A stretch of DNA of 64,000 nucleotides, from positions 26,005,799 to 26,069,798 of the forward strand of contig NC_087072.1 of assembly GCF_026151205.1 (NCBI RefSeq), in the 5' to 3' direction. Positions within the stretch are counted from its first letter, which is position 1; each line of letters starts with the position of its first letter. Shown piece after piece: positions 14,229 through 43,078 of the stretch. The translations under genes were made by a program, and so were the position numbers. The notes beneath the pieces were generated by a model. It searched no databases. It saw nothing but the letters and a program-made list of their open reading frames with translations, and was not told where the DNA came from. This DNA is from Bolinopsis microptera (taxonomy: Eukaryota; Ctenophora; Tentaculata; Lobata; Bolinopsidae).

Positions 14229-16336
14229 ATTAGGTCCTGGTATTAGGTCCCCGTATTAGGTCCTAGTATTAGGTCCTAGTATTAGGTCCTGGTATTAGGT
14301 CCTGGTATTAGGTCCTAGTATTAGGTCCTGGTATTAGGTCCCCGTATTAGGTCCTAGTATTAGGTCCTAGTATTAGGTCCTAGTATTAGGTCCTAGTATT
14401 AGGTCCTAGTATTAGGTCCTAGTATTAGGTCCTGGTATTAGGTCCCAGTATTAGGTCCCCGTATTAGGTCCTAGTATTAGGTCCCCGTATTAGGTCCTAG
14501 TATTAGGTCCTAGTATTACTATTAGGTCCTAGTATTAGGTCCTAGTATTAGGTCCTAGTATTAGGTCCCCGTATTAGGTCCTAGTATTAGGTCCCCGTAT
14601 TAGGTCCTAGTATTAGGTCCTAGTATTAGGTCCCCGTATTAGGTCCTCGTATTAGGTCCTAGTATTAGGTCCTCGTATTAGGTCCTCGTATTAGGTCCTC
14701 GTATTAGGTCCCCGTATTAGGTCCTGGTATTAGGTCCTAGTATTAGGTCCTAGTATTAGGTCCCCGTATTAGGTCCTAGTATTAGGTCCTAGTATTAGGT
14801 CCTCGTATTAGGTCCTCGTATTAGGTCCTAGTATTAGGTCCTCGTATTAGGTCCTAGTATTAGGTCCTAGTATTAGGTCCTCGTATTAGGTCCTCGTATT
14901 AGGTCCTAGTATTAGGTCCTCGTATTAGGTCCTAGTATTAGGTCCCCGTATTAGGTCCTCGTATTAGGTCCTCGTATTAAGTCCCCGTATTAGGTCCTAG
15001 TATTAGGTCCTCGTATTAGGTCCCCGTATTAGGTCCCCGTATTAGGTCCCCGTATTAGGTCCTAGTATTAGGTCCCCGTATTAGGTCCCCGTATTAGGTC
15101 CCCGTATTAGGTCCTGGTATTAGGTCCCCGTATTAGGTCCTAGTATTAGGTCCTAGTATTAGGTCCCCGTATTAGGTCCTGGTATTAGGTCCCCGTATTA
15201 GGTCCCCGTATTAGGTCCCCGTATTAGGTCCCCGTATTAGGTCCTTGTATTAGGTCCCCGTATTAGGTCCTAGTATTAGGTCCCCGTATTAGGTCCTTGT
15301 ATTAGGTCCCCGTATTATGTCCTAGTATTAGGTCCTCGTATTAGGTCCCCGTATTAGGTCCTAGTATTAGGTCCTAGTATTAGGTCCCCGTATTAGGTCC
15401 TTGTATTAGGTCCCCGTATTAGGTCCCCGTATTAGGTCCTAGTATTAGGTCCCCGTATTAGGTCCTAGTATTAGGTCCTAGTATTACTATTAGGTCCTAG
15501 TATTAGGTCCTAGTATTAGGTCCTAGTATTAGGTCCCCGTATTAGGTCCTAGTATTAGGTCCCCGTATTAGGTCCTAGTATTAGGTCCTAGTATTAGGTC
15601 CCCGTATTAGGTCCTCGTATTAGGTCCTAGTATTAGGTCCTCGTATTAGGTCCTCGTATTAGGTCCTCGTATTAGGTCCCCGTATTAGGTCCTGGTATTA
15701 GGTCCTAGTATTAGGTCCTCGTATTAAGTCCCCGTATTAGGTCCTAGTATTAGGTCCTCGTATTAGGTCCCCGTATTAGGTCCCCGTATTAGGTCCCCGT
15801 ATTAGGTCCTAGTATTAGGTCCCCGTATTAGGTCCCCGTATTAGGTCCCCGTATTAGGTCCTGGTATTAGGTCCCCGTATTAGGTCCTAGTATTAGGTCC
15901 TAGTATTAGGTCCCCGTATTAGGTCCTGGTATTAGGTCCCCGTATTAGGTCCCCGTATTAGGTCCCCGTATTAGGTCCCCGTATTAGGTCCTTGTATTAG
16001 GTCCCCGTATTAGGTCCTAGTATTAGGTCCCCGTATTAGGTCCTTGTATTAGGTCCCCGTATTATGTCCTAGTATTAGGTCCTCGTATTAGGTCCCCGTA
16101 TTAGGTCCTAGTATTAGGTCCTAGTATTAGGTCCCCGTATTAGGTCCTTGTATTAGGTCCCCGTATTAGGTCCCCGTATTAGGTCCTAGTATTAGGTCCT
16201 CGTATTAGGTCCCCGTATTAGGTCCCCGTATTAGGTCCTTGTATTAGGTCCCCGTATTAGGTCCCCGTATTAGGTCCCCGTATTAGGTCCTTGTATTAGG
16301 TCCCCGTATTAGGTCCTAGTATTAGGTCCCCGTATT
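14229..16336 (+). repeat. 13-bp minisatellite (ATTAGGTCCTAGT), 2.1 kb
   Basis: About 160 units of 13 bp, with the tenth to twelfth positions varying (CTAG, CCCG, CTCG, CTGG, CTTG). Rare markers recur at fixed offsets: the TATTACTATT insertion at 14514 and 15482 (968 bp), ATTAAGT at 14976 and 15723 (747 bp), ATTATGT at 15314 and 16061 (747 bp). The array therefore arose partly by copying a large internal block, with a 17-unit (221-bp) deletion in one copy. Confidence 0.95.
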
Positions 16337-16385: not shown

Positions 16386-19300
16386 GATAAGAACCTCCGT
16401 ATTACAAGTGATAAGACCCTCTGTATTACGAGTGATAAGACCCTCTGTACTGTATTACGAGTGATAAGACCCTCTGTACTGTATTACGAGTGATAAGACC
16501 CTCTGTACTGTATTACGAGTGATAAGACCCCCCTCTGTACTGTATTAGGAGTGATAAGACCCTCTGTACTGTATTACGGGTGATAAGACCCTCTGTACTG
16601 TATTACGAGTGATAAGACCCTCTGTATTACGAGTGATAAGACCCTCTGTACTGTATTACGGGTGATAAGACCGTCTGTACTGTATTACGAGTGATAAGAC
16701 CCTCTGTACTATATTACGAGTGAAAAGACCCTCTGTACTGTATTACGAGTGATAAGACCCCCCTCTGTACTGTATTACGAGTGATAAGACCCTCTGTACT
16801 GTATTACGAGTGATAAGACCCTCTGTACTGTATTACGAGTGATAAGACCCTCTGTACTGTATTAGGAGTGATAAGAACCTCTGTACTGTATTACGAGTGA
16901 TAAGACCCCCCTCTGTACTGTATTACGAGTGATAAGACCCCCCTCTGTACTGTATTACGAGTGATAAGACCCCCCTCTGTACTGTATTACGAATGATAAG
17001 ACCCTCTGTACTGTATTACGAGTGATAAGACCCCCCTCTGTACTGTATTACGAGTGATAAGACCCCCCTCTGTACTGTATTACGAGTGATAAGACCCCCC
17101 TCTGTACTGTATTACGAGTGATAAGACCCCCCTCTGTACTGTATTACGAGTGATAAGACCCCCCTCTGTACTGTATTACGAGTGATAAGACCCCCTCTGT
17201 ACTGTATTACGAGTGATAAGACCCCCCTCTGTACTGTATTACGAGTGATAAGACCCCCCTCTGTACTGTATTACGAATGATAAGACCTTCTGTACTGTAT
17301 TACGAGTGATAAGACCCCCCTCTGTACTGTATTACGAGTGATAAGACCCCCCTTTGTACTGTATTACGAGTGATAAGACCCCCCTCTGTACTGTATTACG
17401 AGTGATAAGACCCCCCTCTGTACTGTATTACGAGTGATAAGACCCCCCTCTGTACTGTATTACGAGTGATAAGACCCCCCTCTGTACTGTATTACGAGTG
17501 ATAAGACCCCCTCTGTACTGTATTACGAGTGATAATACCCCCCTCTGTACTGTATTACGAGTGATAAGACCCCCCTCTGTACTGTATTACGAGTGAAAAG
17601 ACCCTCTGTACTGTATTACGAGTGATAAGACCCCCCTCTGTACTGTATTACGAGTGATAAGACCCTCTGTACTGTATTACGAGTGATAAGACCCTCTGTA
17701 CTGTATTACGAGTGATAAGACCCTCTGTACTGTATTAGGAGTGATAAGAACCTCTGTACTGTATTACGAGTGATAAGACCCCCCTCTGTACTGTATTACG
17801 AGTGATAAGACCCCCCTCTGTACTGTATTACGAGTGATAAGACCCCCCTCTGTACTGTATTACGAATGATAAGACCCTCTGTACTGTATTACGAGTGATA
17901 AGACCCCCCTCTGTACTGTATTACGAGTGATAAGACCCCCCTCTGTACTGTATTACGAGTGATAAGACCCCCTCTGTACTGTATTACGAGTGATAAGACC
18001 CCCCTCTGTACTGTATTACGAGTGATACGACCCCCCTCTGTACTGTATTACGAGTGATAAGACCCCCCTCTGTACTGTATTACGAATGATAAGACCTTCT
18101 GTACTGTATTACGAGTGATAAGACCCCCCTCTGTACTGTATTACGAGTGATAAGACCCCCCTCTGTACTGTATTACGAGTGATAAGACCCCCCTCTGTAC
18201 TGTATTACGAGTGATAAGACCCCCTCTGTACTGTATTACGAGTGATAAGACCCCCTCTGTACTGTATTACGAGTGATAAGACCCCCCTCTGTACTGTATT
18301 ACGAGTGATAAGACCCCCCTCTGTACTGTATTACGAGTGATAAGACCCCCCTCTGTACTGTATTACGAGTGATAAGACCCCCTCTGTACTGTATTACGAG
18401 TGATAAGACCCCCCTCTGTACTGTATTACGAGTGATAAGACCCCCCTCTGTACTGTATTACGAATGATAAGACCTTCTGTACTGTATTACGAGTGATAAG
18501 ACCCCCCTCTGTACTGTATTACGAGTGATAAGACCCCCCTTTGTACTGTATTACGAGTGATAAGACCCCCCTCTGTACTGTATTACGAGTGATAAGACCC
18601 CCCTCTGTACTGTATTACGAGTGATAAGACCCCCCTCTGTACTGTATTACGAGTGATAAGACCCCCCTCTGTACTGTATTACGAGTGATAAGACCCCCTC
18701 TGTACTGTATTACGAGTGATAATACCCCCCTCTGTACTGTATTACGAGTGATAAGACCCCCCTCTGTACTGTATTACGAGTGAAAAGACCCTCTGTACTG
18801 TATTACGAGTGATAAGACCCCCCTCTGTACTGTATTACGAGTGATAAGACCCTCTGTACTGTATTACGAGTGATAAGACCCTCTGTACTGTATTACGAGT
18901 GATAAGACCCTCTGTACTGTATTAGGAGTGATAAGAACCTCTGTACTGTATTACGAGTGATAAGACCCCCCTCTGTACTGTATTACGAGTGATAAGACCC
19001 CCCTCTGTACTGTATTACGAGTGATAAGACCCCCCTCTGTACTGTATTACGAATGATAAGACCCTCTGTACTGTATTACGAGTGATAAGACCCCCCTCTG
19101 TACTGTATTACGAGTGATAAGACCCCCCCCTGTACTGTATTACGAGTGATAAGACCCCCCTCTGTACTGTATTACGAGTGATAAGACCCCCCTCTGTACT
19201 GTATTACGAGTGATAAGACCCCCCTCTGTACTGTATTACGAGTGATAAGACCCCCCTCTGTACTGTATTACGAATGATAAGACCTTCTGTACTGTATTAC

Positions 19301-20399
19301 GAGTGATAAGACCCCCTTCTGTACTGTATTACGAGTGATAAGACCCCCCTCTGTACTGTATTACGAGTGATAAGACCCCCCTCTGTACTGTATTACGAGT
19401 GATAAGACCCCCCTCTGTACTGTATTACGAGTGATAAGACCCCCTCTGTACTGTATTACGAGTGATAAGACCCCCCTCTGTACTGTATTACGAGTGATAA
19501 GACCCCCCTCTGTACTGTATTACGAATGATAAGACCTTCTGTACTGTATTACGAGTGATAAGACCCCCCTCTGTACTGTATTACGAGTGATAAGACCCCC
19601 CTCTGTACTGTATTACGAGTGATAAGACCCCCCTCTGTACTGTATTACGAGTGATAAGACCCCCCTCTGTACTGTATTACGAGTGATAAGACCACCCTCT
19701 GTACTGTATTACGAGTGATAAGACCCCCCTCTGTACTGTATTACGAGTGATAAGTCCCCCCTCTGTACTGTATTACGAGTGATAAGACCCCCCTCTGTAC
19801 TGTATTACGAGTGATAAGACCCCCCTCTGTACTGTATTATGAGTGATAATACCCCCCTCTGTACTGTATTACGAGTGATAAGACCCCCCTCTGTACTGTA
19901 TTACGAGTGATAAGACCCCCCTCTGTACTGTATTACGAGTGATAAGACCCCCTCTGTACTGTATTACGAGTGATAAGACCCCCCTCTGTACTGTATTACG
20001 AGTGATAAGACCCCCCTCTGTACTGTATTACGAGTGATAAGACCCCCCTCTGTACTGTATTACGAGTGATAAGACCCCCCTCTGTACTGTATTACGAGTG
20101 ATAAGACCCCCCTCTGTACTGTATTACGAGTGATAAGACCCCCCTCTGTACTGTATTACGAGTGATAAGACCCCCCTCTGTACTGTATTACGAGTGATAA
20201 GACCCCCCTCTGTACTGTATTACGAGTGATAAGACCCCCCCCTCTGTACTGTATTACGAGTGATAAGACCCCCCTCTGTACTGTATTACGAGTGATAATA
20301 CCCCCCTCTGTACTGTATTACGAGTGATAAGACCCCCCTCTGTACTGTATTACGAGTGATAAGACCCCCCCCTCTGTACTGTATTACAAGTGATAAGAA
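16386..20399 (+). repeat. ~32-bp minisatellite with variable C-tract, 4.0 kb
   Basis: About 125 units of TGTACTGTATTACGAGTGAT plus AAGACCCCCCTC. Unit length varies from 29 to 34 because the C run varies from three to seven. Rare variants recur 1188 bp apart: GAATGATAAGACCTTCT near 17274 and 18462, CCTTTGTACTG near 17350 and 18538, GATAATACC near 17533 and 18721, and ATTAGGAGTGATAAGAACC at 17733 and 18921. This marks a duplicated higher-order block of about 37 units. Confidence 0.95.
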
Positions 20400-20805
20400 C
20401 TTATTGCTGGGCGTGTACTAGTAGATTGAGGTCATATCTAACAAAAGATGTAGTGATGGAGCAATACAAATACTTCATGATGACACAGTATATAATACTT
20501 CATGATGACACATTATATAATACTGTTGACAACTTATTAACACCCCAATTCTTAACAACCTCTCCTGTAAACTCTGCTGTATTTTATTGGTGTTGCAAAT
20601 GTACTTTTAACACATTCTACATAAATAATGTGTGAGGTGTTTAGAGAAACAAGTAAATGAATTAAATACATGTTGCTGGGATGGAAATATGTGCTCTGTA
20701 AGTTATACTATTATCATTTAATTATTAGGTATTCACTCATAAATTGATAGATAAATTAACGGATAAATAAAACTGCAATTGTATACAACTAACCAGTTAG
20801 TTACT
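20400..20805. other. Short spacer upstream of HAUS2
   Basis: No gene. A 25-bp direct repeat (TACTTCATGATGACACA and onward) lies at about 20470-20521. The 81-codon frame here looks like chance. Confidence 0.4.
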
Positions 20806-21430
20806 ACTAATTAACGTACCTTGCCAGGCACCATGTCTAACCCATGTAGTAGTGTATACTTATACTCCCTACTAATTAACGTACCTTGCCAGGCACCATG
20901 TCTAACCCATGTAGTAGTGTATACTTATACTCCCTACTAATTAACGTACCTTGCCAGGCACCATGTCTAACCCATGTAGTAGTGTATACTTATACTCCCT
21001 ACTAATTAACGTACCTTGCCAGGCACCATGTCTAACCCATGTAGTAGTGTATACTTATACTCCCTACTAATTAACGTACCTTGCCAGGCACCATGTCTAA
21101 CCCATGTAGTAGTGTATACTTATACTCCCTACTAATTAACGTACCTTGCCAGGCACCATGTCTAACCCATGTAGTAGTGTATACTTATACTCCCTACTAA
21201 TTAACGTACCTTGCCAGGCACCATGTCTAACCCATGTAGTAGTGTATACTTATACTCCCTACTAATTAACGTACCTTGCCAGGCACCATGTCTAACCCAT
21301 GTAGTAGTGTATACTTATACTCCCTACTAATTAACGTACCTTGCCAGGCACCATGTCTAACCCATGTAGTAGTGTATACTTATACTCCCTACTAATTAAC
21401 GTACCTTGCCAGGCACCATGTCTAACCCAT
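20806..21430 (+). repeat. 65-bp repeat, nine copies plus the HAUS2 start region
   Basis: Nine apparently identical 65-bp units begin at 20806 and every 65 bp to 21326. A tenth begins at 21391 and runs, without change up to 21430, into the HAUS2 coding sequence. Each unit contains CTTGCCAG, GCACC and ATGTCTAACCCATG, that is, the acceptor, leader and first codons of HAUS2. In units 1-9 the next base is T rather than G, and the frame soon closes. Confidence 0.95.
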
Positions 21431-22029
21431 GGACCACTGACACTCCAGAAGGAAGCCTACTCTCCATCTTAAGAAGCCAGAGTTGTCATGGTAACATAAC
21501 GGAGGAGGACATCTCTGACAATCCCTCCCTCAAGATAATATCAGCCCTGAAAGAGATCTCATATCTAACAGAAGCAATCCACTCCACAGAACTAGAGGTC
21601 CTGCACAGGAACCTGTACAAGACCAACGCGGCACTGCTAAGTGTGGGGAGTATGGGGGAGATAGAGAGTAGTGCGGAGGAGGTGTGTGAGTGTCTAACTC
21701 TAATACTGGATAACAGAGACACTCTAGTAGACAGACTCAAGTGTCCGCTAGAGGAAGGAAGGCTGGTTATAGAGGCCCGCTACCAGAAATACGCTGTAAA
21801 AACGTTTGAGCAGCTGGGTAGAGTACTGTCCCAGCTGACAGTGTACATTAGTAATGTGGAGAAGTATAAGAGTAGTCGTCTAGACGCCAGTAATATAGAC
21901 CAGTCAGCCGGACAGATTGTGGAACTTTGTAACGCGCTCACAACTCTGTACGATAACTTCAGATCAGAGTATGAGAACTTGTTATCAATGAAAGAGTCCA
22001 CTTGTATTCCCTCTACTTTGATAATATGA
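21418..22029 (+). CDS. HAUS2: HAUS augmin-like complex subunit 2
   Basis: Augmin recruits gamma-tubulin to the sides of spindle microtubules, and HAUS2 is one of its eight subunits. The 203-residue frame matches the family in layout: an NPW motif right after the start (MSNPW), a helical stretch with VLHRNLYKTNAALL, then EVCECLTLILDNRDTLVDRL, KCPLEEGRLVIEARYQKY and a C-terminal coiled coil. Human HAUS2 (235 residues, N-terminal NPWDP) has the same order. The start at 21418 is chosen because NPW follows it and because CCTTGCCAG, a likely splice acceptor, ends 5 nt upstream. It is a single coding exon. Nine upstream copies of its start region carry decoy ATGs. Identification rests on recalled motif order; overall identity is low. 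Confidence 0.75.
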   Translation: MSNPWTTDTPEGSLLSILRSQSCHGNITEEDISDNPSLKIISALKEISYLTEAIHSTELEVLHRNLYKTNAALLSVGSMGEIESSAEEVCECLTLILDNRDTLVDRLKCPLEEGRLVIEARYQKYAVKTFEQLGRVLSQLTVYISNVEKYKSSRLDASNIDQSAGQIVELCNALTTLYDNFRSEYENLLSMKESTCIPSTLII

Positions 22030-22625
22030 TGATAATAATTAATAATAATCTATCTTACTATTTCGCATATCAATTGCAGTTATTACATGATATTTTAACA
22101 GATTTGGTAAGCTCGATGATATAAGATCAATCATACCCGAATGCTTGTTGGAGCAGTCTGATGGAAATATGCGAAGTTCTTTAGTATTAATAGCATGGTC
22201 CGAGAGTTTATACATTTTTATGTCTAATATGTAATTGGAACTGTAAAATATATATTATGATGCGAATATGAATGAATTCGATTTAGCGTTTCTGAATAAC
22301 TATAATAATAATGTACGTTTACTACATTTTATTACCATCCGAAGGTGAAATATTCTAAATTCGTTGTCTCACTGTGATGATGGTACTGTTACCAGTGCGT
22401 GTATTAGATATGCTGCATTCCATCTCCATAGTTTTGAAACGGCAGAATACGTATGACGATCCTAATTACGATTTATCCTAATTCTATAACATTATCTTCA
22501 ATCCATAAAAGCGTAAAGGAAGGCTAAGTAAAGGAAGTCAATAAATAAAACAAATTTCCGCTGTAATACACCCGTTAAAACTGCATATATTATATATTAT
22601 ATACCGCACATTTCAGACTGGGCAC
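22030..22625. other. HAUS2-TRMT13 spacer with dispersed repeat
   Basis: A block of about 215 bp at 22225-22440 (GTAATTGGAACTGTAAAATA and onward) recurs almost unchanged at 32097-32318 in the same orientation. At 32 kb it continues into CTTCTGGATCAGCTGGCAAA, which also occurs alone at 24118. An acceptor (CACATTTCAG) ends at 22616. Confidence 0.7.
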
Positions 22626-23897
22626 ATGGCCATGGTAAGGAGTGAAGGTGCAGTTTGCTGCGCGCACTATGTGGAGCGTAAGAAGCGCCGCTGTAAGATG
22701 ACGCCCCTGAAGAACAGCACCTACTGTGCAGGACACGCCTCACTCTACACTGAGGAACTGTCAGATAGGGTGCCCTGTCCCCTGGATCCCGCACACTTCA
22801 TCAGCGCTGCTAAGCTACAACAGCATGTTAAAGTGTGCAATGCCCTTAAGTTCGACTACACTTCAGAACCTTACTTTAAAGCTAACGTTAACCTACCCCC
22901 TCCGCACGCAATCCAGGATTTAAGGAGAGAGCCCTTATCTAAACTTTCTATACAGCAACTAATTGGAACGTGTTTGAAGCTTCTTGAGTACGGAGTGGAG
23001 AGTAAAGTGTGTAAGACAGAAACTACGGAAACTGTTACTGATCTAGAGCAATACAGACCCTTGTTCCAGATAGGGACTAATGCGGGCAACTCAGCGGTCA
23101 GGCATGCTACTCAACAAGTAGCCTTGTTGAACGCTCTCTCTAACTTTCAAGTGCACAATGGTGCTGACACTAAGTTTCCTGACACGTGTTTTGTAGAGCT
23201 GGGAGCCGGGTCTGGTAAACTTAGTCAGTGGTTTCACTACAAAGCTAATCATTGCTTCTTTCTTCTTGTGGATAAACAGACTTGTCGCAGAAAGGCCGAC
23301 AGTTACTTCAGAAAACAGAAGTGTAATTTTATTCGACTAAAAATGGACATAAAAGACATAGATGTGAGCGGAGTACCAGGACTGGGAGATTACAAGAGAG
23401 TCTGCTTCGCTTGTAAGCACTTGTGTGGTGGTGCAACAGACCTAGCACTTGTTGCCGCGGCGCAGTCAGGTCAGCACACCGAGACTACCGTTCTCATAGC
23501 CCTGTGTTGCCATCATCTGTGTTCCTGGGACTCATACTCGGGGAAGGACTACTTCATTACACATTTCAAACCTGAGGAATTCTACACGCTGTCCTCGCTT
23601 TCAGCTTGGGCTACCTGCTTCAAACTCGAAACGTTGCAGGTAGATAATCAAAAGGTTCTGAACGAACTGATAGAATCATTCCAGAAACACCCTGAATCTA
23701 ACATTATACAAGAACATCTGGTTTTGGATAGGACCTTGCAATGGCACATCGGTAGATGTGCTAAGAATGCTTTAAACGACGGAAGAGCTCAATTTATGTT
23801 AAACAGTGGATTCAGAGTGCAGTTTTCTAAATATGTTAACATTGATATATCTCCTGAAAATACTGCGCTCTTGTGTTTCAAGGACGTCGCTTCTTAA
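22626..23897 (+). CDS. TRMT13: tRNA:m4X modification enzyme TRM13 homolog
   Basis: TRM13 uses S-adenosylmethionine to 2'-O-methylate position 4 in the acceptor stem of certain tRNAs (Gly, Pro and His in yeast). The 423-residue protein has both N-terminal zinc fingers of the family: a CCCH finger (C12, C23, C34, H37) and a U11-48K-type CHHC finger (C51, H57, H67, C71). The methyltransferase core follows, with the cofactor loop VELGAGSGKLSQWF near 190-203, ACKHLCGGATDLAL near 262-275 and ALCCHHLCSW near 292-301. Human TRMT13 is 481 residues, so this one is compact. It is a single coding exon; a TTTCAG acceptor ends 9 nt before the ATG. A second ATG at 22632 could serve instead. It lies 600 bp past HAUS2 on the same strand. 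Confidence 0.93.
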   Translation: MAMVRSEGAVCCAHYVERKKRRCKMTPLKNSTYCAGHASLYTEELSDRVPCPLDPAHFISAAKLQQHVKVCNALKFDYTSEPYFKANVNLPPPHAIQDLRREPLSKLSIQQLIGTCLKLLEYGVESKVCKTETTETVTDLEQYRPLFQIGTNAGNSAVRHATQQVALLNALSNFQVHNGADTKFPDTCFVELGAGSGKLSQWFHYKANHCFFLLVDKQTCRRKADSYFRKQKCNFIRLKMDIKDIDVSGVPGLGDYKRVCFACKHLCGGATDLALVAAAQSGQHTETTVLIALCCHHLCSWDSYSGKDYFITHFKPEEFYTLSSLSAWATCFKLETLQVDNQKVLNELIESFQKHPESNIIQEHLVLDRTLQWHIGRCAKNALNDGRAQFMLNSGFRVQFSKYVNIDISPENTALLCFKDVAS

Positions 23898-24565
23898 ACA
23901 ATTAATCCTGGTGCTACAATACGATACGTTTTATTGTCATTCAATGACGGAAGTGATAGTTTTCGACTCAAATTTCAGTTACATACCGTACCCTTAGAAC
24001 GGAAGTAAAATTATAAGTACTATCAATGGAACGCGCGAGTACAAATTGATTATGCGGACAGTGACTTTAAGGTGTTCAGTGAGCTAAGATTCTCGCGTCA
24101 CGTGCGCGGCTTCCCTACTTCTGGATCAGCTGGCAAATTTCGTGTAACGGGAGTGGGGACGAAAGTTTCGTATTATTATTATTAGGTAAGGGGTCGTTCA
24201 CTGTTCACATATTACGTAATCAGCCGAGGGGGGGTTTCCAAATGCTGAGGGGTAGTTCATATATAATTTATATACCCCCTTCTTTTTGAAATGAGGGGGG
24301 GGGGGGGCATGAATGGAGAAGATTGGGCGACATCTCAGATGTCGCCCAGATGTCATCTGTCCGACTTAAAAAATAGGTTATTTGGACAATAGTTTATGTC
24401 GGATTCTACCGTACGATTTTCTTAAAACTTTCCATAAAGTATGGTGGTTATAGGACAAATAATCTGTGTAAGTTTGAGCGAGTTTCTATGTGCCAAGTTT
24501 TTAAGATATTACCTTAAACACAAAAAATATATCTAATTCAGTGGTTTTCAGTGGTTCCAAAGCAT
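23898..24565. other. TRMT13 3' flank with GC hairpin and repeat remnant
   Basis: No gene. A perfect 10-bp-stem hairpin GGGCGACATC-TCA-GATGTCGCCC lies at 24325-24347, just after a G12 run. The stretch 24400-24530 (ACGATTTTCTTAAAACTTTC and onward) is related to 31845-32095 and, inverted, to 35280-35380: one dispersed repeat family. Confidence 0.55.
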
Positions 24566-24957
24566 AATAAAACAAATATTTAATAAAACAAATATTTATT
24601 TTTACGGCACAATCAAACAATATCAATAATAAATAAATCAGGGGAGGTTTGAAGAGGTTTCAAGTGCCGAAGGCCACTGCTTATCTTTAGGATTTGAGAG
24701 TGACCTGTGCTTGAAACCCCCTCAACCATCCACTACGTCAATATAAAACTTATTATACAAATATAGAAAAATATAATTATCTAAGCTAAAATTGCTTATT
24801 GGTCTAGTTTGGTGACATAGGAGAGCCCAGTTGAGTTTTAGTTTAGGTTTATGTTTTAAATCATAGTTTGAAAGGTTAGCCATGTTTCATGGCAGAGAGA
24901 GATATCATGTGTGCAGAGCCGTACCAGATGTAGAATTTGAGATATAATATAGATTAG

Positions 24958-25629
24958 TTACCATATATTAGGGTCACCTCGATTTTGGAGGGATAGCAAG
25001 TGCTTTTTAAGGTTAGATTTAATAATACCTGACAAGGCTGATAAGTCTGAATTTTTGGAAGACCCCGGGATTATTATCCCATCTACATTAGCATCACATA
25101 TTTCGAATACATAGGGGATGAGATCATTCCATATTTTCGTAGAGGTGTACAAAAAGTTCTGTTGGGAGATATCTAACCTCAGTAATGGGACAATCAGACG
25201 AAGTTTTTCATTTCTAGGACAGAACTTGAAAAGATCTTTAATCGACTGGGGGACATCAAATTTAAGAATTTTGAATAGCTCCATAAATGTATGGTACATG
25301 TGCAGATTCTCCAGGTTCATAATTTTCTGCTCAGTGAATAGCGGTTTAGTGTGTTCAAGACAGTAGTTCTTTTTAGCCATATGTTCGTTATAAGTTCTTG
25401 AACGTGCACAGGTTAAGTAGTATTCTTTATGATCAAAATTGGGAATGTTACCAAATAGCAGTCGTATACATCGTTTTTGAATAGCAAAGATTTTATTCAG
25501 CTTATGTTTAGGGATCCCACCCCAGCAACTTATACAATAGCTAAGATGTGACATAAAAAGAGCATTGTATAGTTTCAAATATTCAGATTTGGGAATGAAT
25601 TTGCAAATTCTCTTAATCGATACAATACT
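24958..25629 (-). pseudogene. ORF2 thumb and C-terminus, out of frame with the rest
   Basis: Continuation of the CR1 ORF2 in another frame: IVSIKRICKFIPKSEYLK, then LYNALFMSHLSYCISCWG, the second TCARSRT motif, and a C-terminal domain ending RGDPNIW. The frame change comes from extra copies of an 8/7-bp unit (AACTCCAT/ACTCCAT) just upstream. Compared with an unexpanded site there are 23 surplus nt, so ORF2 ends early after SITPYSITPY. Without the surplus bases the two parts would be collinear. Confidence 0.85.
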
Positions 25630-25634
25630 GGTAT

Positions 25635-28424
25635 TCAGTATGGAGTTATGGAGTATGGAGTTATGGAGTTCAGCTTTAAAGATAAATGATTAAGATGTGG
25701 TTCCCAACATAGCTGTTCGTCTATTATCACCCCAAGAAATTTTGTACATTGAACTTTTTCTAGCTTTTTGCCATCTATTGAAATCGTTAGATTCCTGTTA
25801 AAGGGCCGTGTTCTAGCACAGGTCTGTGTTGCTCTTGACAAACCTGGCTGAAAATGCATAAAACAACTTTTCCCTGCATTTATATGTAACTTGTTAGACT
25901 CCATATAGTTACTGACCTGTTTCATTACATGATTAGCTTTTTCAAAAGCTTCCTGTGCTGAACGACCTATCACAAAAATATTTGTATCATCAGCAAACAG
26001 GACGAATTCAGCCAAACTTGAGGAGCTCACAATATCATTTATATAAATCAGAAATAGTAGAGGTCCTAACACTGACCCCTGGGGTACACCATACTCAACT
26101 GAACACTTGTCCGATTTTTCAGTTTGAAAAGAAGTTACTTGGCTACGGTTTGTTAGATAGCTAGCAAGAGTTTTTAGTGCAATACCTCTTACTCCATAGT
26201 GTTCAAGTTTATGCAGGAGTTTATCGTGCTCAATTGTGTCAAATGCTTTACTTAGATCAATAAATATTCCAATTACATGATTTTTCTGTTCAATCTCATT
26301 AAGTATTTTATTGACAGAATAGTTTACGGCATGAGATGTTGAGTGTTGTTTTCTAAAACCAAATTGTCGATCATAAATCACGTTCATAGCACTGAGGTAA
26401 TTATATAACCTATTATAAATTATTTTTTCAAGTATTTTGCCAAATATCGGTAATGTAGAAACAGGTCGATAGTTATCAAGGCATCGTGAGTCTCCTTTTT
26501 TATAAATTGGTGTAATAGAGCCCGTTTTAAGCTTGTTTGGAAAGACCCCATTGTCCAAGAACCAATTAAAGAATCTAGAGATATGACCAGACAGATAATT
26601 TACACTCTTTTTTAAGACTTTAACAGAGATATCACTTGCCTTCCCATTTTCAAGGCTACCAATAATTTTACTTATCTCTTCCTCGTCACAGGGGCTGAGA
26701 AAAAAAGAGTTCACTATTCTTTCTCTGCCCTTGAGGTATTGTTTAAACTTCGTTTTATTGAAATTGCCATCAGTTACCGTACGAGATGGTACAGAAGATT
26801 GAACTTTTGAATTAAGATTACGAGCAATAGACGAGAAGTAGATGTTAAATCCGTTGGCAATCTCACGGCGTTCAGTTACAATTCTACCATCAATTAAGAA
26901 TGATGCTTTTATATCTTTTTTAGATTTACCCCTGAGTTCGTTGATCAATTCCCAGGTTTTTTTAATATTTCCTTTAGCAAGTTCAAATTTTTTCCCATAG
27001 TGGGCTTTTTTCGCAGATTTTATAGCTTTGTTTAAGATAGAACGATACTCCTTATACTTAAGATATAAAGTTTCCTCACCTAATGGGTTGATTTTGGTAC
27101 ACGAAGCCTTCCATCGCTTGTAGTGAAAGCCTTTAGTAAACACAGATTTAATTAACGCAGAAGTGATCCATGGATTCATCAATCTATTGCGTTTTGATTG
27201 AAAACCAGCAGTACAGTCCACTTTGAAATTCAGTTCGATTTTTTCGTGGACAGTTTCGACAAATTTTTCAAAACCTTCCTCATCATACGAAAAGTTCGAT
27301 TGGTAGATATCCTTTCCAATATCATTAAGGAAACTTTCTATATTAGACTCACAGTAATCATACTTAGGTTTAAGTTTGGCAGTATTTGAACTCTCTTTAA
27401 TATTACACGATATGAAACAGAAGATGGGGTTATGATGGGAAATCTTGGATTCAAGAATTCCAGATCCTAACACACGCTCAGTAGAGTTCACTAAAATATT
27501 ATCAATTAAGCTTTCATTGCAACCCGGCTTGGCATGGGTGGCAATCGATATCAAAGGGATTAAATTGTTACTGTAGATAGTTTGTTCAAATTCAGCTATG
27601 TTTCGTCCCTGGGCCAAAAGATCAACATTGAAGTCACCTGTCAAGGCTACATTATTAGACGGTAGAAATTTCATCAACACATCAAGCTCAGCAAGTGCAT
27701 CTTGAATATCACCACTAGGGGGCCTGTAAACAACACCAGCAATCTGTGGAACCTCTGTGTTAGTGATCTCAACGAAAAGTGTTTCAAGATTGTCAGAGCA
27801 TTTACATAACTTTTCGATTCGGCTGTATTGGTACTGATTGTCAATATATATACCAAGGCCACTACCTTTCTTTTTCCCATCAGTTTTAGAGTTGTACTCA
27901 CTGCTGTAACCATCAATTTTGTATAGATCTTTATTTTCCTCATTAATGTTTGTTTCAGCTAGCGCAATAACTGCAAATTTCTCATCATATTGACTCATAT
28001 CAGTAATAAAGCTGTCAAAGTTAGATGCGTTCCCATCAATGTTGTTAAACACAATAGATATAAACGGCTTGTTATGGTTAAGTATGTTTTTTGACAGCCG
28101 GTTGAAATTTGTCATGTTATAATACCTACAGTCTTTTAGAATGTTTGAAATAGTCTCCATATCCTCGTCTCTTTCTACAGTGTTGGGATCATATTTGTCA
28201 TAAATAATTGAGTTAAAAGGATTGTACCTTTGGGATTTGAAGGCGTAACACTGACTGCAGTGCCACATTTGTTTAACATGATCAAATTTAAAACTCTGTT
28301 CAGAACATTTGGCATGATATATTGTATCGCAACTCTCACATATTATGATTTTATGATGGCTTAGTACATTGCTATCACAACCTGGACATCTCTCTCTTGT
28401 AATATTGAAGTTTATTGAGGTCAT
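25635..28424 (-). CDS. CR1-like ORF2: PHD finger, APE endonuclease, reverse transcriptase
   Basis: Nicks target DNA and primes reverse transcription from the nick. The 929 residues begin with a PHD-type zinc finger (CPGC, CESC, YHAKC, WHCSQC; about 14-62). The APE endonuclease (about 117-350) shows LAETN, GSGLGIYID, VYRPPSGD, LTGDFNVDLL and SLIDNILVN. Its last motif reads SHHNPIF where SDH is usual, so the aspartate of that motif is replaced. The reverse transcriptase follows with NYRPVSTLPIFGKI, FGFRKQHSTSH, FIDLSKAFDTIEHD, YGVPQGSVLGPLLF and the catalytic LFADDTNIF. The ATG overlaps the ORF1 stop as ATGA, suggesting translation by termination-reinitiation. The frame ends early in a tandem duplication; the thumb continues in another frame at 25629-24958. 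Confidence 0.93.
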   Translation of the reverse strand: MTSINFNITRERCPGCDSNVLSHHKIIICESCDTIYHAKCSEQSFKFDHVKQMWHCSQCYAFKSQRYNPFNSIIYDKYDPNTVERDEDMETISNILKDCRYYNMTNFNRLSKNILNHNKPFISIVFNNIDGNASNFDSFITDMSQYDEKFAVIALAETNINEENKDLYKIDGYSSEYNSKTDGKKKGSGLGIYIDNQYQYSRIEKLCKCSDNLETLFVEITNTEVPQIAGVVYRPPSGDIQDALAELDVLMKFLPSNNVALTGDFNVDLLAQGRNIAEFEQTIYSNNLIPLISIATHAKPGCNESLIDNILVNSTERVLGSGILESKISHHNPIFCFISCNIKESSNTAKLKPKYDYCESNIESFLNDIGKDIYQSNFSYDEEGFEKFVETVHEKIELNFKVDCTAGFQSKRNRLMNPWITSALIKSVFTKGFHYKRWKASCTKINPLGEETLYLKYKEYRSILNKAIKSAKKAHYGKKFELAKGNIKKTWELINELRGKSKKDIKASFLIDGRIVTERREIANGFNIYFSSIARNLNSKVQSSVPSRTVTDGNFNKTKFKQYLKGRERIVNSFFLSPCDEEEISKIIGSLENGKASDISVKVLKKSVNYLSGHISRFFNWFLDNGVFPNKLKTGSITPIYKKGDSRCLDNYRPVSTLPIFGKILEKIIYNRLYNYLSAMNVIYDRQFGFRKQHSTSHAVNYSVNKILNEIEQKNHVIGIFIDLSKAFDTIEHDKLLHKLEHYGVRGIALKTLASYLTNRSQVTSFQTEKSDKCSVEYGVPQGSVLGPLLFLIYINDIVSSSSLAEFVLFADDTNIFVIGRSAQEAFEKANHVMKQVSNYMESNKLHINAGKSCFMHFQPGLSRATQTCARTRPFNRNLTISIDGKKLEKVQCTKFLGVIIDEQLCWEPHLNHLSLKLNSITPYSITPY

Positions 28425-30589
28425 ATCGGTAAGATATCACCCGTACTACCCCTACTTAGGGCACTCCTATAGTCACCATTTCCACCTTTAAATCTTTCCG
28501 TGGACTGACTTCCACCACGTTGTACAATACACCGTTTTATGTTCATACAAAATATTTTCAGGCCTTCTCTCCCGAGATGAACAACATCATTGACCAATGG
28601 TGTACCATCACGTGAGAATCTACCATACTTAGAGGGCATACATCCGTTAACAGAACCTAGTACAGAGTTATCTATAATAAACATGTTTTTCCTATTATAA
28701 ACCATGTCGACAATTAAACTGTTTAACTCCCCTATACGTGAGTTAACAAACTGTGATTTGGTGGGCAAGAGTAAACTAATATGAACTTTACTATTAGGAT
28801 AAAATTGCTGAATTTCACAACATTTCTTCTTAAGCTTAGCAATAAGTGTTCTAGTGGATGGTCTGTTGGAATCATCTCGAATATCATTGATTCCCGTATG
28901 TATAACAATGTTCCGAAAGGGGCCTATGTCTTTGGGAGCAGGAATATCGTCGATTTTAGCAGCCCACATTCGCTTACCGGGAACCCATTTTCCTAGAGTT
29001 CCAACATCTTTACCAAATTTAATGTACTTAGTGTTTGAGTCTCCAATTAACACTGTGCTATTTTTGTAGAAAGGCGCAATATGCCTAAAGGTAAAGCTGT
29101 ACCTCACAGAAGTTTTCTCTTCAGATTCCTCGCCATCTTCTTCATTAGCGAGGGGTTCAATACCATGATTCCAGATTTCTTGGGACATTCTGGACATCAC
29201 GTATACACTTCCATCTTTGAGCTTTAAGGACTTTTCAGTCGACTTATGTGTGAACTTTATTGTGCGTTCTTCACCAAGGGACACAGTGACTATTATCGAT
29301 TCTGGGTCAATAAGAACCTCATTGTCGCAGTGTTGGGGGATATGGCTACTGTTGCCTGTATATCTTGTAACAAGGCAAGAGTTCAGCCAGCTCTTCCTAT
29401 TGGGGAGAGAGGGACGCACACAGTCCAAAAGATCTTGTATCTCCGGTGGAGTTTCCTTTGCCTGATGATAGGCTCCTGTGTACCAGTATCCATGTTCACC
29501 AAAGTAGACAACATCCCTGCTGCCACCAACCGAAGAAAAATCCGCACTATTGTCCTCCAGCAGCTTTATAAGTTTGCTGTGAAGCTCAACAGGCACTATA
29601 TCTTCCTGATAAGTTAGATAAGGGTCACATGCAGGGCCTTCAGGAATTTGAGATGCAGCAAAGTGAGGAGAAGTAGTGTTAGGGGTCATAAGGATAGATT
29701 CATTGTAACGTAGTTCACCTTCATCAAAGTTCTGTGTGGACGTTGAGGGACATACATGATCATTGATCTTTTCCAATTGCACTTTGATCTGGGTCATCAG
29801 GTTGTCAACATGATCGAAAGTACTGCTGTTAGTCGGAGGTTGCTCTGTCATAGGTATATTTTTGAGAGAGTCCTTCAGGCCATCAATCTCCTGTTTGAGA
29901 GAGTTGCTGGTTGTCTCAAGAGCTGAGCCACTCTCCTTTACTTTCGTAAGTACACCCTTGATAGAAGCTATGTCTTCAGTGATATCTTCAATTCCAGTCA
30001 CTAATCGTTCTGTTCTTTTGGAGTGTTCTTTGAAACAACTGTCCTCCTTGAGTATGAGGTGTTTGATATGCTCGTTGAAGAACTCTATGGTTGTTGTACT
30101 TTCTTTGAGTTCCTCATTACACTTTGATATCTTAGAAATATTGCTAAAGAATTCTGTTAACGCTTTGGATTTTTCCTCCTCCTTCAATCTTCTTGTGTAA
30201 GGAAAGATAAAGCAGTCCGGGCACTTCCAGGAAGTGCTGAGCTTCTTTAGAGAAGTTGCTGTGAGGCCAGCAAGGTTAACACAGTTAGAATGGAAGGTCT
30301 GCTTACAAGTAACACATAAGATTGCAGGGTTCTTTGACTCTACAAAGCAGGGACACTTAGAGAGTAGCGTTCCTGGGATCGATGCTGATTCGTTGCTCTC
30401 TACATCTACAAAGTCTCCATCAGATGTTAGATCTGCATCTGGCTCTGTGTTCCTATTATGTATTCTGCTAGTGACTTTTCGGCTTAAAACAGGGCTTGAA
30501 ATAGGGGTGGATCCAGCTGACTTGCACCCTCGAGACGTGGAATTAAAGAGGTCCGATCTCCTGTCGAGTTTCTTGTCGGTCTTTTTCAT
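28421..30589 (-). CDS. CR1-like ORF1: PHD + coiled coil + AlkB-type oxygenase + SGNH esterase
   Basis: A 722-residue ORF1 protein, expected to bind element RNA and chaperone it. Domains in order: PHD finger (about 79-126: CPC, CVTC, FHSNC, WKCPDC); a coiled-coil-rich part (about 135-280); an AlkB-like 2OG-Fe(II) dioxygenase (about 330-506) with iron ligands H420 and D422 (QHCDNE), distal H475 (IWNHG) and the 2-oxoglutarate motif RYSFTFR (R496, R502); then an SGNH hydrolase (about 511-690) with GDSN (S518), HTGINDI (N568) and DVVHL (D668, H671). PHD and esterase domains are established parts of CR1 ORF1; the AlkB module is the surprise. AlkB enzymes remove alkyl groups from nucleic-acid bases, so it might clean or demethylate element RNA. 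That role is inference. All catalytic residues look intact. Confidence 0.92.
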   Translation of the reverse strand: MKKTDKKLDRRSDLFNSTSRGCKSAGSTPISSPVLSRKVTSRIHNRNTEPDADLTSDGDFVDVESNESASIPGTLLSKCPCFVESKNPAILCVTCKQTFHSNCVNLAGLTATSLKKLSTSWKCPDCFIFPYTRRLKEEEKSKALTEFFSNISKISKCNEELKESTTTIEFFNEHIKHLILKEDSCFKEHSKRTERLVTGIEDITEDIASIKGVLTKVKESGSALETTSNSLKQEIDGLKDSLKNIPMTEQPPTNSSTFDHVDNLMTQIKVQLEKINDHVCPSTSTQNFDEGELRYNESILMTPNTTSPHFAASQIPEGPACDPYLTYQEDIVPVELHSKLIKLLEDNSADFSSVGGSRDVVYFGEHGYWYTGAYHQAKETPPEIQDLLDCVRPSLPNRKSWLNSCLVTRYTGNSSHIPQHCDNEVLIDPESIIVTVSLGEERTIKFTHKSTEKSLKLKDGSVYVMSRMSQEIWNHGIEPLANEEDGEESEEKTSVRYSFTFRHIAPFYKNSTVLIGDSNTKYIKFGKDVGTLGKWVPGKRMWAAKIDDIPAPKDIGPFRNIVIHTGINDIRDDSNRPSTRTLIAKLKKKCCEIQQFYPNSKVHISLLLPTKSQFVNSRIGELNSLIVDMVYNRKNMFIIDNSVLGSVNGCMPSKYGRFSRDGTPLVNDVVHLGREGLKIFCMNIKRCIVQRGGSQSTERFKGGNGDYRSALSRGSTGDILPI

Positions 30590-30680
30590 GATGATAATGG
30601 ATGCGGAGTACAGGGGTGAGCGGAGGGGGCCAGGGTCAGACCCATCGAACCAGACCAGTAAACCTGAAACAAGCTAGGCG

Positions 30681-31897
30681 GCAGTGAGATGAGTAACATA
30701 AATTTATCAGTGATCACGTTAAGCTTAGCAGGAATCACCAGTATATTTAAGGCTAGTTAATGAGTTATTAAGTACGATTGTTGATTGAAAATGAATAAAG
30801 TATATCGAAACGTCAATTGTTTTGGATGAGATGTAAAATGGAGTGAATGTGCAATGAGGGGGAAGGGGCTGGGGTAAGGATCGGAGGGGTTGGGGTAAGG
30901 AAGGGCTATCAATTCAAATTCAATGTAAATTTTCAACTTTATCAATAAACAATCCCACACAAATATTAGTTAGAATCTCAAATCTGAATGAATGTACACA
31001 TATAAAGGGTAAATAGTCTGCGGGTATTATATATAAATTTTTAATAAAAAATGTGTGGGGAGGCAGATAACAGGGGAAAAAATGGGGAGAGGGATTTTGC
31101 AAGACTGCAGGTGGATATCTTTACTTTTTAGATTTCCATTGAATAACTGTCTTGGGTTAAATAATCTTCTCACTCTAACACGAATAGGACAGCATAATGA
31201 TAAAAGCACAGCTAAACCTCAAGTGCAATTTTAAACATTTAAAAAAAATTAATATTCATCTGTTAATACTTTTAGAGTTATGACAATCAAAGATATCAGT
31301 ATAAATTTAAAGTATAATTTAAATTTGAATTTGTCATACATTAAATGAGCAATAAAGTAATTACATATCAATACGTTTTAGTAAATTTGCTATTTGCAGT
31401 GGTTCACAAAACCATTACTTATAATAACTGCTATTTTATTGAGGCTCTTCTATTTCAAGTGCAGACCGTAGTCACCATACATTTCAACACTACATACAGC
31501 AGTATCATATATATATACAAATATTTAAGGATATCCAGACTGTAGCCAAGCAAGTTCGCAGGGTTAAAAGTAGGGTCAGGGTAGGGTCACGTGGACGTGG
31601 ATTTGAATGATGATGTTTATGGCGGTGCTGATGCTGATTGTAGAAAAATGATAATTACTCAACTTGCTTCAGGAGTCCATGGCTAGTCTTCTGAGTACAC
31701 GACCCGGCCACCCCGCATCACCCCCACACACCTTTTCCAATTAGTGCTGCATTACTTGCGAACTTGCTTGACTGACATTCTTTTTCGACATCCTCAAATT
31801 ATTTGTTATATAGTAGTGTTGAAAGTATTAAAACTGGAGATCCAACGATACGATTTTCTTGAAACTTTCTAGATAGTAAGATAGCTTTAAGAAATAA
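30681..31897. other. AT-rich spacer, no gene
   Basis: No supported coding region. A GGGGTAAGGAT/GGAAGGGG-like purine stretch lies at 30860-30905. From 31793 the 42-bp block shared with 6436 appears, then the dispersed repeat related to 24400-24530. Confidence 0.4.
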
Positions 31898-32096: not shown

Positions 32097-32350
32097 TGTA
32101 ATTGGAACTGTAAAATATATATTATGATGCGTATATGAATGAATTCGATTTAACGTTTCTGAATAACTATAATAATAATGTACGTTTACTACATTTTATT
32201 ACCATCCGAAGGTGAAATATTCTAAATTCGTTGTCTCACTGTGATGATGGTACTGGTATCAGTGCGTGTAATAAAAAGTATTAGATATGCTGCATTCAAT
32301 CTCCATAGTTTTGAAACTACTTCTGGATCAGCTGGCAAATTTCGTGTAAT
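32097..32350 (+). repeat. Dispersed repeat, second copy
   Basis: Near-identical over about 215 bp to 22225-22440, then continuing with CTTCTGGATCAGCTGGCAAATT, of which a piece also sits at 24118. No coding content. Confidence 0.75.
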
Positions 32351-41041: not shown

Positions 41042-43078
41042 TTATGCGTTGGTGTAGTGACAATAGGGATCAGTAATACTGGGTTCAGCAATATTAGGTG
41101 AAATGCTCAAATCAGTAGGCGGTGCAATTTGAACATTCTCATTCAAGTCACGTTCATACCTAACTAACGGTTCTCTCCTATCCTGCTCGGTGTCAATAAC
41201 ATCTTCTCTCGCATCAGATGGATAAAATGACACGATGTGATCAATGTGACGTGTACAGGTAGATCCGTTTTCCATGGTAATGGAGTAATGTACGTCTGAT
41301 ACACTGCGAATAACTCCTCTCTTCCACTTATTATTGATCAGATCTCGGTACAATATCTGATCTCCCACTTTAAATCGTCTCAGTTTCGTGTCTTGTTTTA
41401 CTCTTTCCATCTCTTCTTTAGCAGATTTAGCGTTCTCTCTGGAATCGGTGAACGGATGAAGTAAGCTAAGAGCTGATCGGGTTCTCCTTCCGATCATTCG
41501 AACAGCAGGTTCCACTTGTGTTGTCGTGTGTGGAGTGTTGTGATACATCATTAACCAGTTCTGTAGGTTTAACATGGTATCTGAGTTGTTCTGTTTCATT
41601 CTTTTCATAGCGTTCTTAAATTTTCCCACAGCGTTTTCTGCTAACCCATTACTAGCTGGATGATAAGGTGGTGTTGTAACGTGTGTTACTCCGTTCATCT
41701 TCATGAACTGTTTCATTTCAGCAGATATGAATTGCGGTCCGTTGTCGCTAACAATAACTAGACACACACCCCATCGGCAGAAAATCTCTGTCAGTGCTTT
41801 AATAGTATCACTAGTCTTTGTATTTCCCACAGGTAATCTGTTTACTTCAATCCACTTGGAGTACGAGTCCACAACAATGAGCCACATATGATTCAGGAAA
41901 GGTCCTGCGAAATCAATATGTACACGTTCCCATGGTCCTGATGGTTCCTTCCAAGGATGTGGAGTCGTCTTAGCTGGTTTTCTCTGGTTGATCTGACATG
42001 ATACACAGTGTCGGATCATGTTATCTATAGCAAGATCCATCTTTGGCCACCATACGTAGTTTCTCGCTAGAGCTTTGGTACTACCCATTCCCATATGAGT
42101 ATGATGTAATAACTTTACGACTTCATCTCTTAAACTCGTTGGAATGATGACACGATGTCCCCACAATAGACATCCTTTCTCAATACTCAGTTCGTCTCTT
42201 CTTGTATAGTAGGCTGAATCAGTCGCATTTTCTGGCACTGATTCAACTTTCTCTTTCCACTTGTTCCAACCTTCTTTAATACAGTACATCACGTTTGCGA
42301 TCACGTGGTCTTTGGCTGAATGTTGAGCGATCAACTGGCTGTTTAACAACGGTTTTTCTTGATCCATGTACGTTGCAAACACAGTTGTTGGTTCTGGTTC
42401 TAGATCTTCTTTCTCTGCAGGTAACGGATATCTGGAACAAAAGTCTGCGTTACAGTGTTTCTCTGTAGGTCTGAACTTTATGGTATAGTCGTAGTGACTC
42501 AGAGTGAGAGCCCATCGAATGATCCTCGATGTCCCCATCTCAGGTATTTGCTTCTTACTGTCCAACAGTATTTCTAACGGCTTGTGGTCTACATATAATT
42601 GGAAGTTTCTCGCGAAGAGATACTTGTGGAATCTTTTAACTGACCAAACAATTGCCAACGCCTCTTTCTCTATTTGTGAATAGTTCCTTTCAGCTGAAGT
42701 AAGCGTCCGAGAAATAAACTCAACAGGTCTATCTCCATTAGTCGGGTCTGGGTGTGACAGTACCGCTCCCAATCCAAATGGTGATGCGTCGCAATCTAAT
42801 CTCAAAGGTTTGTCTGGGTCATAGAATGTTAGAACTCTGTCTGAAGCTAGATACTTCTTCAACTTGTCAAAAGCTGCTTTCTCTTCTGATCCAAATCTCC
42901 AGTCTTTGCTCGTTCTCAGTCTGTTCAGTGATTCTATCATCGTAGATAGATCTGGTATGAACCTACCGTAATACTGTACGGCTCCGAGAAATGACTTCAA
43001 CTTCGATAAATCCTCAGGATACGGTGCTTTAACTAGTGTCTCCACTTTACTCTTACACAAAATTCCGATTTTTCCCAA
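41042..43078 (-). CDS. Mag-type Pol: RT thumb, RNase H, integrase
   Basis: 678 residues continuing Pol of the LTR element. Start: KVETLVKAP and LKSFLGAVQYYGRFIPDLS (RT thumb). RNase H: LDCDASPFGLGAVLSH, EKEALAIVWSVKRFHKYL, VDHKPLEILL. Integrase zinc domain: HHTHMGMGSTKALARNYVWW with HCVSCQ. Integrase core: HIDFAGPF, IVSDNGPQF and SNGLAENAVGKFK give the D, D, E residues. A chromatin-facing C-terminus (GDQILYRD, KWKRGVI) follows. The first codon here is not a true start: the segment that should carry the YLGH motif is deleted with a frame change at about 43040-43060, separating this part from the upstream frame. Confidence 0.93.
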   Translation of the reverse strand: MGKIGILCKSKVETLVKAPYPEDLSKLKSFLGAVQYYGRFIPDLSTMIESLNRLRTSKDWRFGSEEKAAFDKLKKYLASDRVLTFYDPDKPLRLDCDASPFGLGAVLSHPDPTNGDRPVEFISRTLTSAERNYSQIEKEALAIVWSVKRFHKYLFARNFQLYVDHKPLEILLDSKKQIPEMGTSRIIRWALTLSHYDYTIKFRPTEKHCNADFCSRYPLPAEKEDLEPEPTTVFATYMDQEKPLLNSQLIAQHSAKDHVIANVMYCIKEGWNKWKEKVESVPENATDSAYYTRRDELSIEKGCLLWGHRVIIPTSLRDEVVKLLHHTHMGMGSTKALARNYVWWPKMDLAIDNMIRHCVSCQINQRKPAKTTPHPWKEPSGPWERVHIDFAGPFLNHMWLIVVDSYSKWIEVNRLPVGNTKTSDTIKALTEIFCRWGVCLVIVSDNGPQFISAEMKQFMKMNGVTHVTTPPYHPASNGLAENAVGKFKNAMKRMKQNNSDTMLNLQNWLMMYHNTPHTTTQVEPAVRMIGRRTRSALSLLHPFTDSRENAKSAKEEMERVKQDTKLRRFKVGDQILYRDLINNKWKRGVIRSVSDVHYSITMENGSTCTRHIDHIVSFYPSDAREDVIDTEQDRREPLVRYERDLNENVQIAPPTDLSISPNIAEPSITDPYCHYTNA

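Follow-up and report, generated by a model that had tools for sequence, protein, structure and literature searches.

Why should a retrotransposon encode an AlkB-type oxygenase? The question is raised by a 64,000-nucleotide stretch of the genome of the ctenophore Bolinopsis microptera (contig NC_087072.1, positions 26,005,799 to 26,069,798, forward strand; hereafter the window). It contains a long interspersed nuclear element (LINE) whose first open reading frame (ORF1) encodes a PHD finger, an AlkB domain and an SGNH esterase in a single protein.

An AlkB domain inside a LINE ORF1

A preliminary description, made from the letters of the window alone, had placed this three-domain ORF1 at 28421..30589. 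The frame was found exactly there, on the minus strand, and many stops are present over 28421-30589 in plus-strand frame 1. Its parts are as follows.

28421..30589, minus strand: ORF1, 722 amino acids (aa), intact; PHD finger, putative coiled coil, AlkB domain and SGNH esterase (open reading frame, Pfam and alignment)
30212..30355, minus strand: PHD finger, residues 79-126 (PF00628, E=1.1e-4; PDB matches to PHD fingers)
29765..30127, minus strand: putative coiled coil, residues about 155-275, suggested by faint Pfam matches to families of coiled coils, all below threshold
29072..29602, minus strand: AlkB-type 2-oxoglutarate (2OG)-Fe(II) oxygenase domain, residues 330-506 (PF13532 and family profile)
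29330..29332, minus strand: expected iron ligand H420 (alignment column)
29324-29326, minus strand: D422, aspartate of the AlkB HxD motif (alignment column)
29318-29320, minus strand: E424, glutamate of HxDxE (alignment column)
29165..29167, minus strand: expected distal iron ligand H475 (120/121 rows)
29084..29104, minus strand: RYSFTFR, residues 496-502, with the arginines expected to hold 2-oxoglutarate (R496 in 120/121 rows, R502 in 121/121)
28520..29059, minus strand: SGNH esterase domain, residues 511-690 (GDSN, GIND and DVVHL motifs)

Profile PF13532 (2OG-FeII_Oxy_2) matched residues 366-502 at E=8.9e-19, and its score of 68.9 bits exceeds the family cut-off of 31.2. The significant AlkB match predicted beforehand was therefore obtained, and the residue numbers proposed for H420, D422, H475 and RYSFTFR were correct. 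The three esterase motifs that had been named were present as well, GDSN at residue 516, GIND at 566 and DVVHL at 668, with the SGNH block residues S518, N568, D668 and H671 all in place. Pfam gave the window ORF1 only a faint GDSL match in this region (E=0.27), and PF13472 matched six sister LINE-type ORF1s at E=7.5e-7 to 1e-3, all under the family cut-off. The PHD match (residues 84-126, 22.6 bits) fell just under its cut-off of 24; the Cys4-His-Cys3 zinc pattern is present (C79, C81, C92, C95, H100, C103, C123, C126). Depending on the column, 62-69 of the 121 aligned rows have the expected residue, the remainder being mostly gaps, with the exception of C79 and C81, where 23-25 of the 121 rows have another residue.

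Ligand conservation and selection

With the AlkB-esterase part of ORF1 as query, 296 protein homologues were found at E<=1e-3, which argues that the fusion is not due to chance. The best 120, which are 41-90% identical to the query, were examined. H420, D422, H475, R496 and R502 were intact in 119 of them and the remaining one was gapped at four of these five positions, so that the ligands are indeed kept in most sister copies, as had been anticipated. Counting the query, H420, D422 and E424 were each found in 120 of 121 rows, the E424 exception being a gap. On the esterase side, D517, S518, D668 and H671 were kept in 117 of the 120 homologues (two exceptions had Glu for Asp668, one was a gap). 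At the genomic level, all 28 copies covering the six AlkB sites had them intact, the window's copy included, many of these copies being near-identical. A third search, bearing on other LINE families, gave 51 proteins; a regular expression detected the full AlkB motif in 47, and three of the four misses have no precomputed AlkB domain. Every NCBI-named homologue among the best 120 and these 51 came from Mnemiopsis leidyi (15 of 15, 3 + 12).

Ratios of non-synonymous to synonymous substitution rates (dN/dS) were computed for 22 pairs of genomic copies, 11 of them between subfamilies; sequences recur from pair to pair, and the pairs cannot be treated as independent. Over residues 311-510, the 11 between-subfamily pairs gave 0.21-0.29. 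For the AlkB core (residues 363-502), values of 0.10-0.11 were obtained when copy L001 was compared to L011, L012 and L014 (Fisher p 1.1e-7 to 1.4e-6), and the same comparisons gave 0.03-0.07 for the esterase and 0.32-0.42 for the N-terminal part (N-terminal values for L015 and L021, apparently misaligned, were not used). Within subfamilies, dN/dS was 0.19-0.40 where defined; the 0.88 found over AlkB for L001-L010 rests on one synonymous and three non-synonymous changes and is uninformative. The AlkB segment is under purifying selection, and with ratios not near 1 between subfamilies, the earlier view that the preserved ligands reflect selection was borne out.

The element carrying ORF1

ORF1 ends within the start of a second frame, ORF2, with an overlap of 4 nt (28421-28424). 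The element was delimited as follows.

24565..31836, minus strand: whole LINE copy, about 7.27 kb (boundaries common to other genomic copies)
30590..31836, minus strand: 5′ untranslated region of the element (shared 5′ boundary to ORF1 start)
25635..28424, minus strand: ORF2, 929 aa in the window copy, with PHD finger (residues 13-59), endonuclease (139-325) and reverse transcriptase (RT, 642-901)
24958..25634, minus strand: remaining C-terminal coding part of ORF2, out of frame in the window copy (read by eye)

Pfam matched the ORF2 RT at 2.5e-39, and the PHD finger (E=8.9e-4) and endonuclease below cut-off. A PHD finger thus also opens ORF2, hence one per element protein; PMC4120745 describes a PHD as probably lying at the start of ORF2 in some L2/CR1 subgroups. 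Open ORF2s of other copies are 1143 aa long, with the same C-terminal residues as the out-of-frame part of the window's. The 5′ end of the element lies near 31829-31836 and its 3′ end, at 24565, is A/T-rich and repeated. When 13 fetched copies were compared by blastn, seven started at 31829-31836 and six at positions scattered over 30308-30692; ten ended at 24564-24565. An ORF2 with endonuclease and RT, 5′-truncated copies and a common 3′ end are those expected of a LINE. No clear target-site duplication was seen in the 11 copies checked, the longest shared stretch being 9 nt.

The host genome searched amounts to 264.65 Mb in 232 contigs. It contains at least 68 ORF1 matches, distant families included, and 8 full-length copies besides the window's that are 99-100% identical. 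ORF1 (721-722 aa) and ORF2 (1143 aa) were both open in 7 of the 13 fetched copies, from which we infer recent activity; the window element would then be a copy of a recently active LINE. A second family has ORF2s 52% identical to the window's (11 rows), and in 8 of these 11 an ORF1 match, 40-45% identical to the window ORF1, sits immediately upstream, which indicates that the AlkB-bearing ORF1 and ORF2 travel together.

AlkB domains in other LINE families

A scan of the host genome with PF13532, in which the best 150 of 587 candidates were scored, gave at least 151 matches. Of the 150 rows counted, 149 had no internal stop and 146 lay in frames of at least 332 aa, not each of them being a confirmed transposon. 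Eleven small loci were read: eight contained transposon-type ORFs (L044-L050 and L060) and three contained presumed host AlkB frames (L051-L053). AlkB followed downstream by an endonuclease or RT was found in the window family, L048, L046, L049 and, weakly, L060 (of the loci read, the downstream check covered these last four). Over 220 aa, the start of the ORF2 at L048 is 36% identical to that of the window element. Downstream of L046, endonuclease and RT matched at 3.1e-6 and 1.7e-15; downstream of L049, the endonuclease matched at 7.9e-8 and the RT part was 31% identical over 115 aa. The LINE status of L060 rests on an endonuclease match at E=0.0025, below cut-off. The AlkB carriers include LINEs with ORF2s of 23-31% mutual identity, and the 23% found between those of the window and L046 (over 478 aa) points to separate LINE lineages.

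Domain order varies between carriers. In the LINE of L049 and L059, AlkB is placed at the ORF1 N-terminus, and in the Helitron described below SGNH comes first. The AlkB of this LINE was nearer to cellular AlkBs in one tree, and may represent a second, independent capture.

Two other pieces of the window resemble these ORF2s: 708-1445 is 53% identical to the window ORF2, and the RT part found downstream of L046 has a 57% identical counterpart at 4838-5827.

Relation to cellular AlkB enzymes

A family profile, built from the query and 94 of its 120 examined homologues (95 sequences in all), was compared with PDB sequences. It ranked ALKBH2 first (2.8e-20), then ALKBH3 (1.2e-15), ALKBH8 (2.4e-9) and E. 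coli AlkB (4e-6), and no ALKBH5 or FTO chain was among its 53 PDB matches at E<=0.01. By sequence, the transposon AlkB resembles ALKBH2/3, not ALKBH5/FTO. ALKBH2 and ALKBH3 are nucleic-acid repair enzymes that erase 1-methyladenine (m1A) and 3-methylcytosine (m3C), and such relatives make m1A/m3C likelier substrates than N6-methyladenine (m6A). In AlkB enzymes, an acidic residue at the second position beyond the aspartate of HxD, such as E424 here, is taken as a mark of m1A/m3C erasers.

L051 is the presumed host ALKBH2 gene (E=3.9e-60 to ALKBH2 chains) and L053 the presumed host ALKBH3 (1.4e-27), with which L052 groups. In a tree that took in 20 of the 178 fetched homologue proteins, with these three presumed host and three bacterial AlkBs as its only references, the transposon AlkBs, L049 left aside, formed their own branch (100/98) apart from cellular AlkBs. 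A domain-only homologue search gave seven matches, with no clear cellular AlkB among them, and no confirmed relative was found in the viral contigs and prokaryote genome contigs searched, an argument against viral or bacterial contamination.

AlkB in Helitrons

AlkB was also found in a transposon of a different class. At L044+L054, a single open frame runs without a stop for 3273 aa over the fetched part, and matches SGNH (4e-6, below cut-off), AlkB (2.3e-21), the Rep-like Helitron_like_N (9.7e-23) and the PIF1 helicase (5.8e-22) in Pfam. Six of the 41 genomic Helitron_like_N matches share an open frame with an AlkB match, the criteria being an equal frame length, the same strand and a spacing of about 4 kb (frames of 2225, 2459, 3226, 3321, 3366 and 3388 aa). 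At two further loci both domains occur on one strand, with about 4 kb between them. Used as a query, the Helitron AlkB had at least 154 matches in the genome (best 150 of 746 candidates), with further frame-length classes; for three further Helitron-type AlkB copies, 84-90% identical, no nearby Helitron_like_N was found among the matches listed.

The nearest match found with this query was L060, a LINE-like ORF1, whose AlkB was sister to that of the Helitron (support 100/100; identity 41% over 170 aa), the next-best ORF compared being L046, at 30%. A clade uniting the LINE AlkBs to the exclusion of the Helitron had a p-value in the approximately unbiased test (p-AU) of 0.64 before L060 was added, and was rejected once L060 was in the tree, with a p-AU of 0.0024. 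This value is optimistic, since L060 was picked after its match to the Helitron query was known and the tree tool warns of meeting long branches (the Helitron pair with L050, and L049 with the rest). Because of this post-hoc choice and of the warning, we rate the movement of AlkB between the LINE and Helitron classes as probable, not proven. The place of the Helitron among LINE-type ORFs favours passage from LINE to Helitron. The SGNH domains of the Helitron and L060 show no clear kinship (21%, E=0.21), and a movement is therefore argued for AlkB only.

What AlkB may do for the element

The explanation that we find best, and consider probable, is that the ORF1 protein (ORF1p) forms a multimer whose AlkB frees the element's RNA or single-stranded DNA of N-linked methyl groups. 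ORF1p would bind the element RNA as a multimer, and its AlkB domain would oxidatively remove methyl groups of the m1A/m3C class from that RNA or from single-stranded DNA. Any lesion or mark that stands in the way of reverse transcription or translation, or of the persistence of the single-stranded intermediate, would thereby be cleared. The PHD finger might anchor the particle on chromatin, and the substrate of the esterase might be membranes or some other acyl compound. In tRNA sequencing, samples are treated with AlkB because modifications hinder cDNA synthesis. This effect of nucleotide modifications is documented in PMC12140624. As AlkB recurs across element families, one of a different class included, the elements probably clean or unmark their own nucleic acid.

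Several points weigh against such a reading. Helitrons are not known to use reverse transcription, and cleaning of an RT template does not explain their AlkB; the benefit would then not be confined to reverse transcription. What LINE and Helitron life cycles would share is mRNA and single-stranded DNA. The preliminary description had suggested that the element encodes its own base-demethylase to protect or unmark its RNA or cDNA. The fusion, the preserved ligands and the purifying selection that it pointed to were upheld. Demethylation of the element's own RNA or cDNA is a hypothesis, and as the whole story the RNA-to-cDNA role fails, given the related Helitron AlkB. In addition, the homologues are predicted open frames, so that broken copies are under-represented; this ascertainment towards intact frames does not by itself cause a low dN/dS. 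The ORF2 frame of the window copy is broken near 25640, its C-terminal part lying in another frame. In some sister families the esterase GDS is changed to ISSS or FGSS, with the DxxHL end kept (ORFs L045:443-2095, L046:822-2759, L047:564-2396 and L060:1051-2670), and the catalytic site of the esterase may be altered in these four families.

On a wider scale, and more tentatively, we propose that an ALKBH2/3-like oxygenase was captured long ago in this ctenophore lineage and became an accessory enzyme shared by transposons. It would be found in several deeply separate LINE lineages, would have passed between a LINE and a rolling-circle Helitron, and would protect or unmark the mRNA or single-stranded DNA intermediate common to both. 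If true, transposon copies of AlkB, probably hundreds, would outnumber the few AlkB genes of the host.

Alternatively, AlkB could serve anti-silencing rather than repair, by erasing a mark written by the host to silence transposons, for instance m6A in RNA or its DNA counterpart, 6mA. We regard this as rather unlikely. In its favour, presence in both LINEs and Helitrons fits such a general role better than an RT-specific one, and the product of the ALKBH5-like ORF of an orchid Ty3/Gypsy element, a long terminal repeat (LTR) retrotransposon, demethylates m6A in vitro (PMC9289625). Against it, the matches of the family profile are to ALKBH2/3/8 and AlkB, with neither ALKBH5 nor FTO among them, and for want of such a match an m6A eraser is not our first choice.

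A second possibility, quite improbable in our view, is that the domain hydroxylates a protein (a histone or ORF1p itself), or that its pocket only binds, with no action on the element's bases. The closest profiles are those of ALKBH2/3, enzymes of nucleic-acid repair, and the ligands and the HxDxE glutamate are kept, all of which speaks for nucleic acid. In favour of a protein substrate, the PHD finger points to chromatin, and ABH7, an AlkB homologue without the nucleotide lid, has been proposed to act on proteins (PMC11431407). That AlkB is a mere passenger, captured by hitch-hiking without benefit, is compatible with pairs having few changes, such as L001-L010, and is hardly credible in view of the dN/dS of its core, the ligands kept across such divergent homologues and the spread of the domain over several element families.

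Other features of the window

22626-23897, plus strand: TRM13 methyltransferase gene, one open frame, adjoining the element (PF05206, E=1.7e-53)
22230-22440 and 24115-24147, against 32097-32349: near-identical direct repeats flanking the element, the left copy being interrupted by the TRM13-bearing stretch
41042-45129, minus strand: LTR-type retrotransposon, whose two overlapping frames encode a zinc knuckle, a protease, an RT, an RNase H and an integrase
78-1319, 4250-5809, 46373-47182 and 47216-49057, minus strand: more RT-bearing frames
9963-11887, 14229-16336, 16421-20398 and 20804-21431: extended tandem repeats, unit lengths 30, 13, 32 and 65 bp, copies matching at 89-100%

Significance and comparison with known systems

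That several LINE families and a Helitron carry AlkB suggests that transposition in these animals is held back by methylation of nucleic acids, an idea that can be tested with a small purified enzyme. One enzyme family is documented here in LINEs and Helitrons, and comparison and tree point to an exchange between them. AlkB also adds a further enzymatic module to the ORF1 protein, long treated as structural.

The transposon AlkBs share with ALKBH2 and ALKBH3 the sequence family and a motif of the HxDxE...H...RxSxTxR type, and differ in sequence, identity to the presumed host ALKBH2 being 26% over 151 residues. The L044+L054 frame has Helitron_like_N and PIF1 together as Helitrons do, and differs in carrying SGNH and AlkB domains N-terminally.

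CR1/L2 LINEs with ORF1 of types III and IV also have a PHD finger or an SGNH esterase in ORF1, and an endonuclease-RT ORF2 (PMC4120745, PMC3905857). In Table 1 of PMC4120745 the PHD finger and the esterase belong to different ORF1 types, and neither "dioxygenase" nor "oxygenase" occurs as a word in the text of that paper; the window ORF1 differs in joining PHD, AlkB and esterase in one protein. By title and start of abstract, no description of AlkB in a LINE or Helitron was found among the open-literature papers listed; Repbase and subscription papers, outside this scope, may hold one.

Plant RNA viruses are alike in that a parasite genome carries its own AlkB (PMC544882, PMC9452765); there the domains belong to viral proteins, not to transposons. 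The orchid Ty3/Gypsy element, reported from Phalaenopsis, is likewise a retroelement encoding an AlkB-type oxygenase, and differs in being an LTR element with a separate ORF of the ALKBH5 lineage (PMC9289625). The ctenophore elements, in comparison, are LINE ORF1 fusions and Helitrons, with an ALKBH2/3-like domain present in several families.

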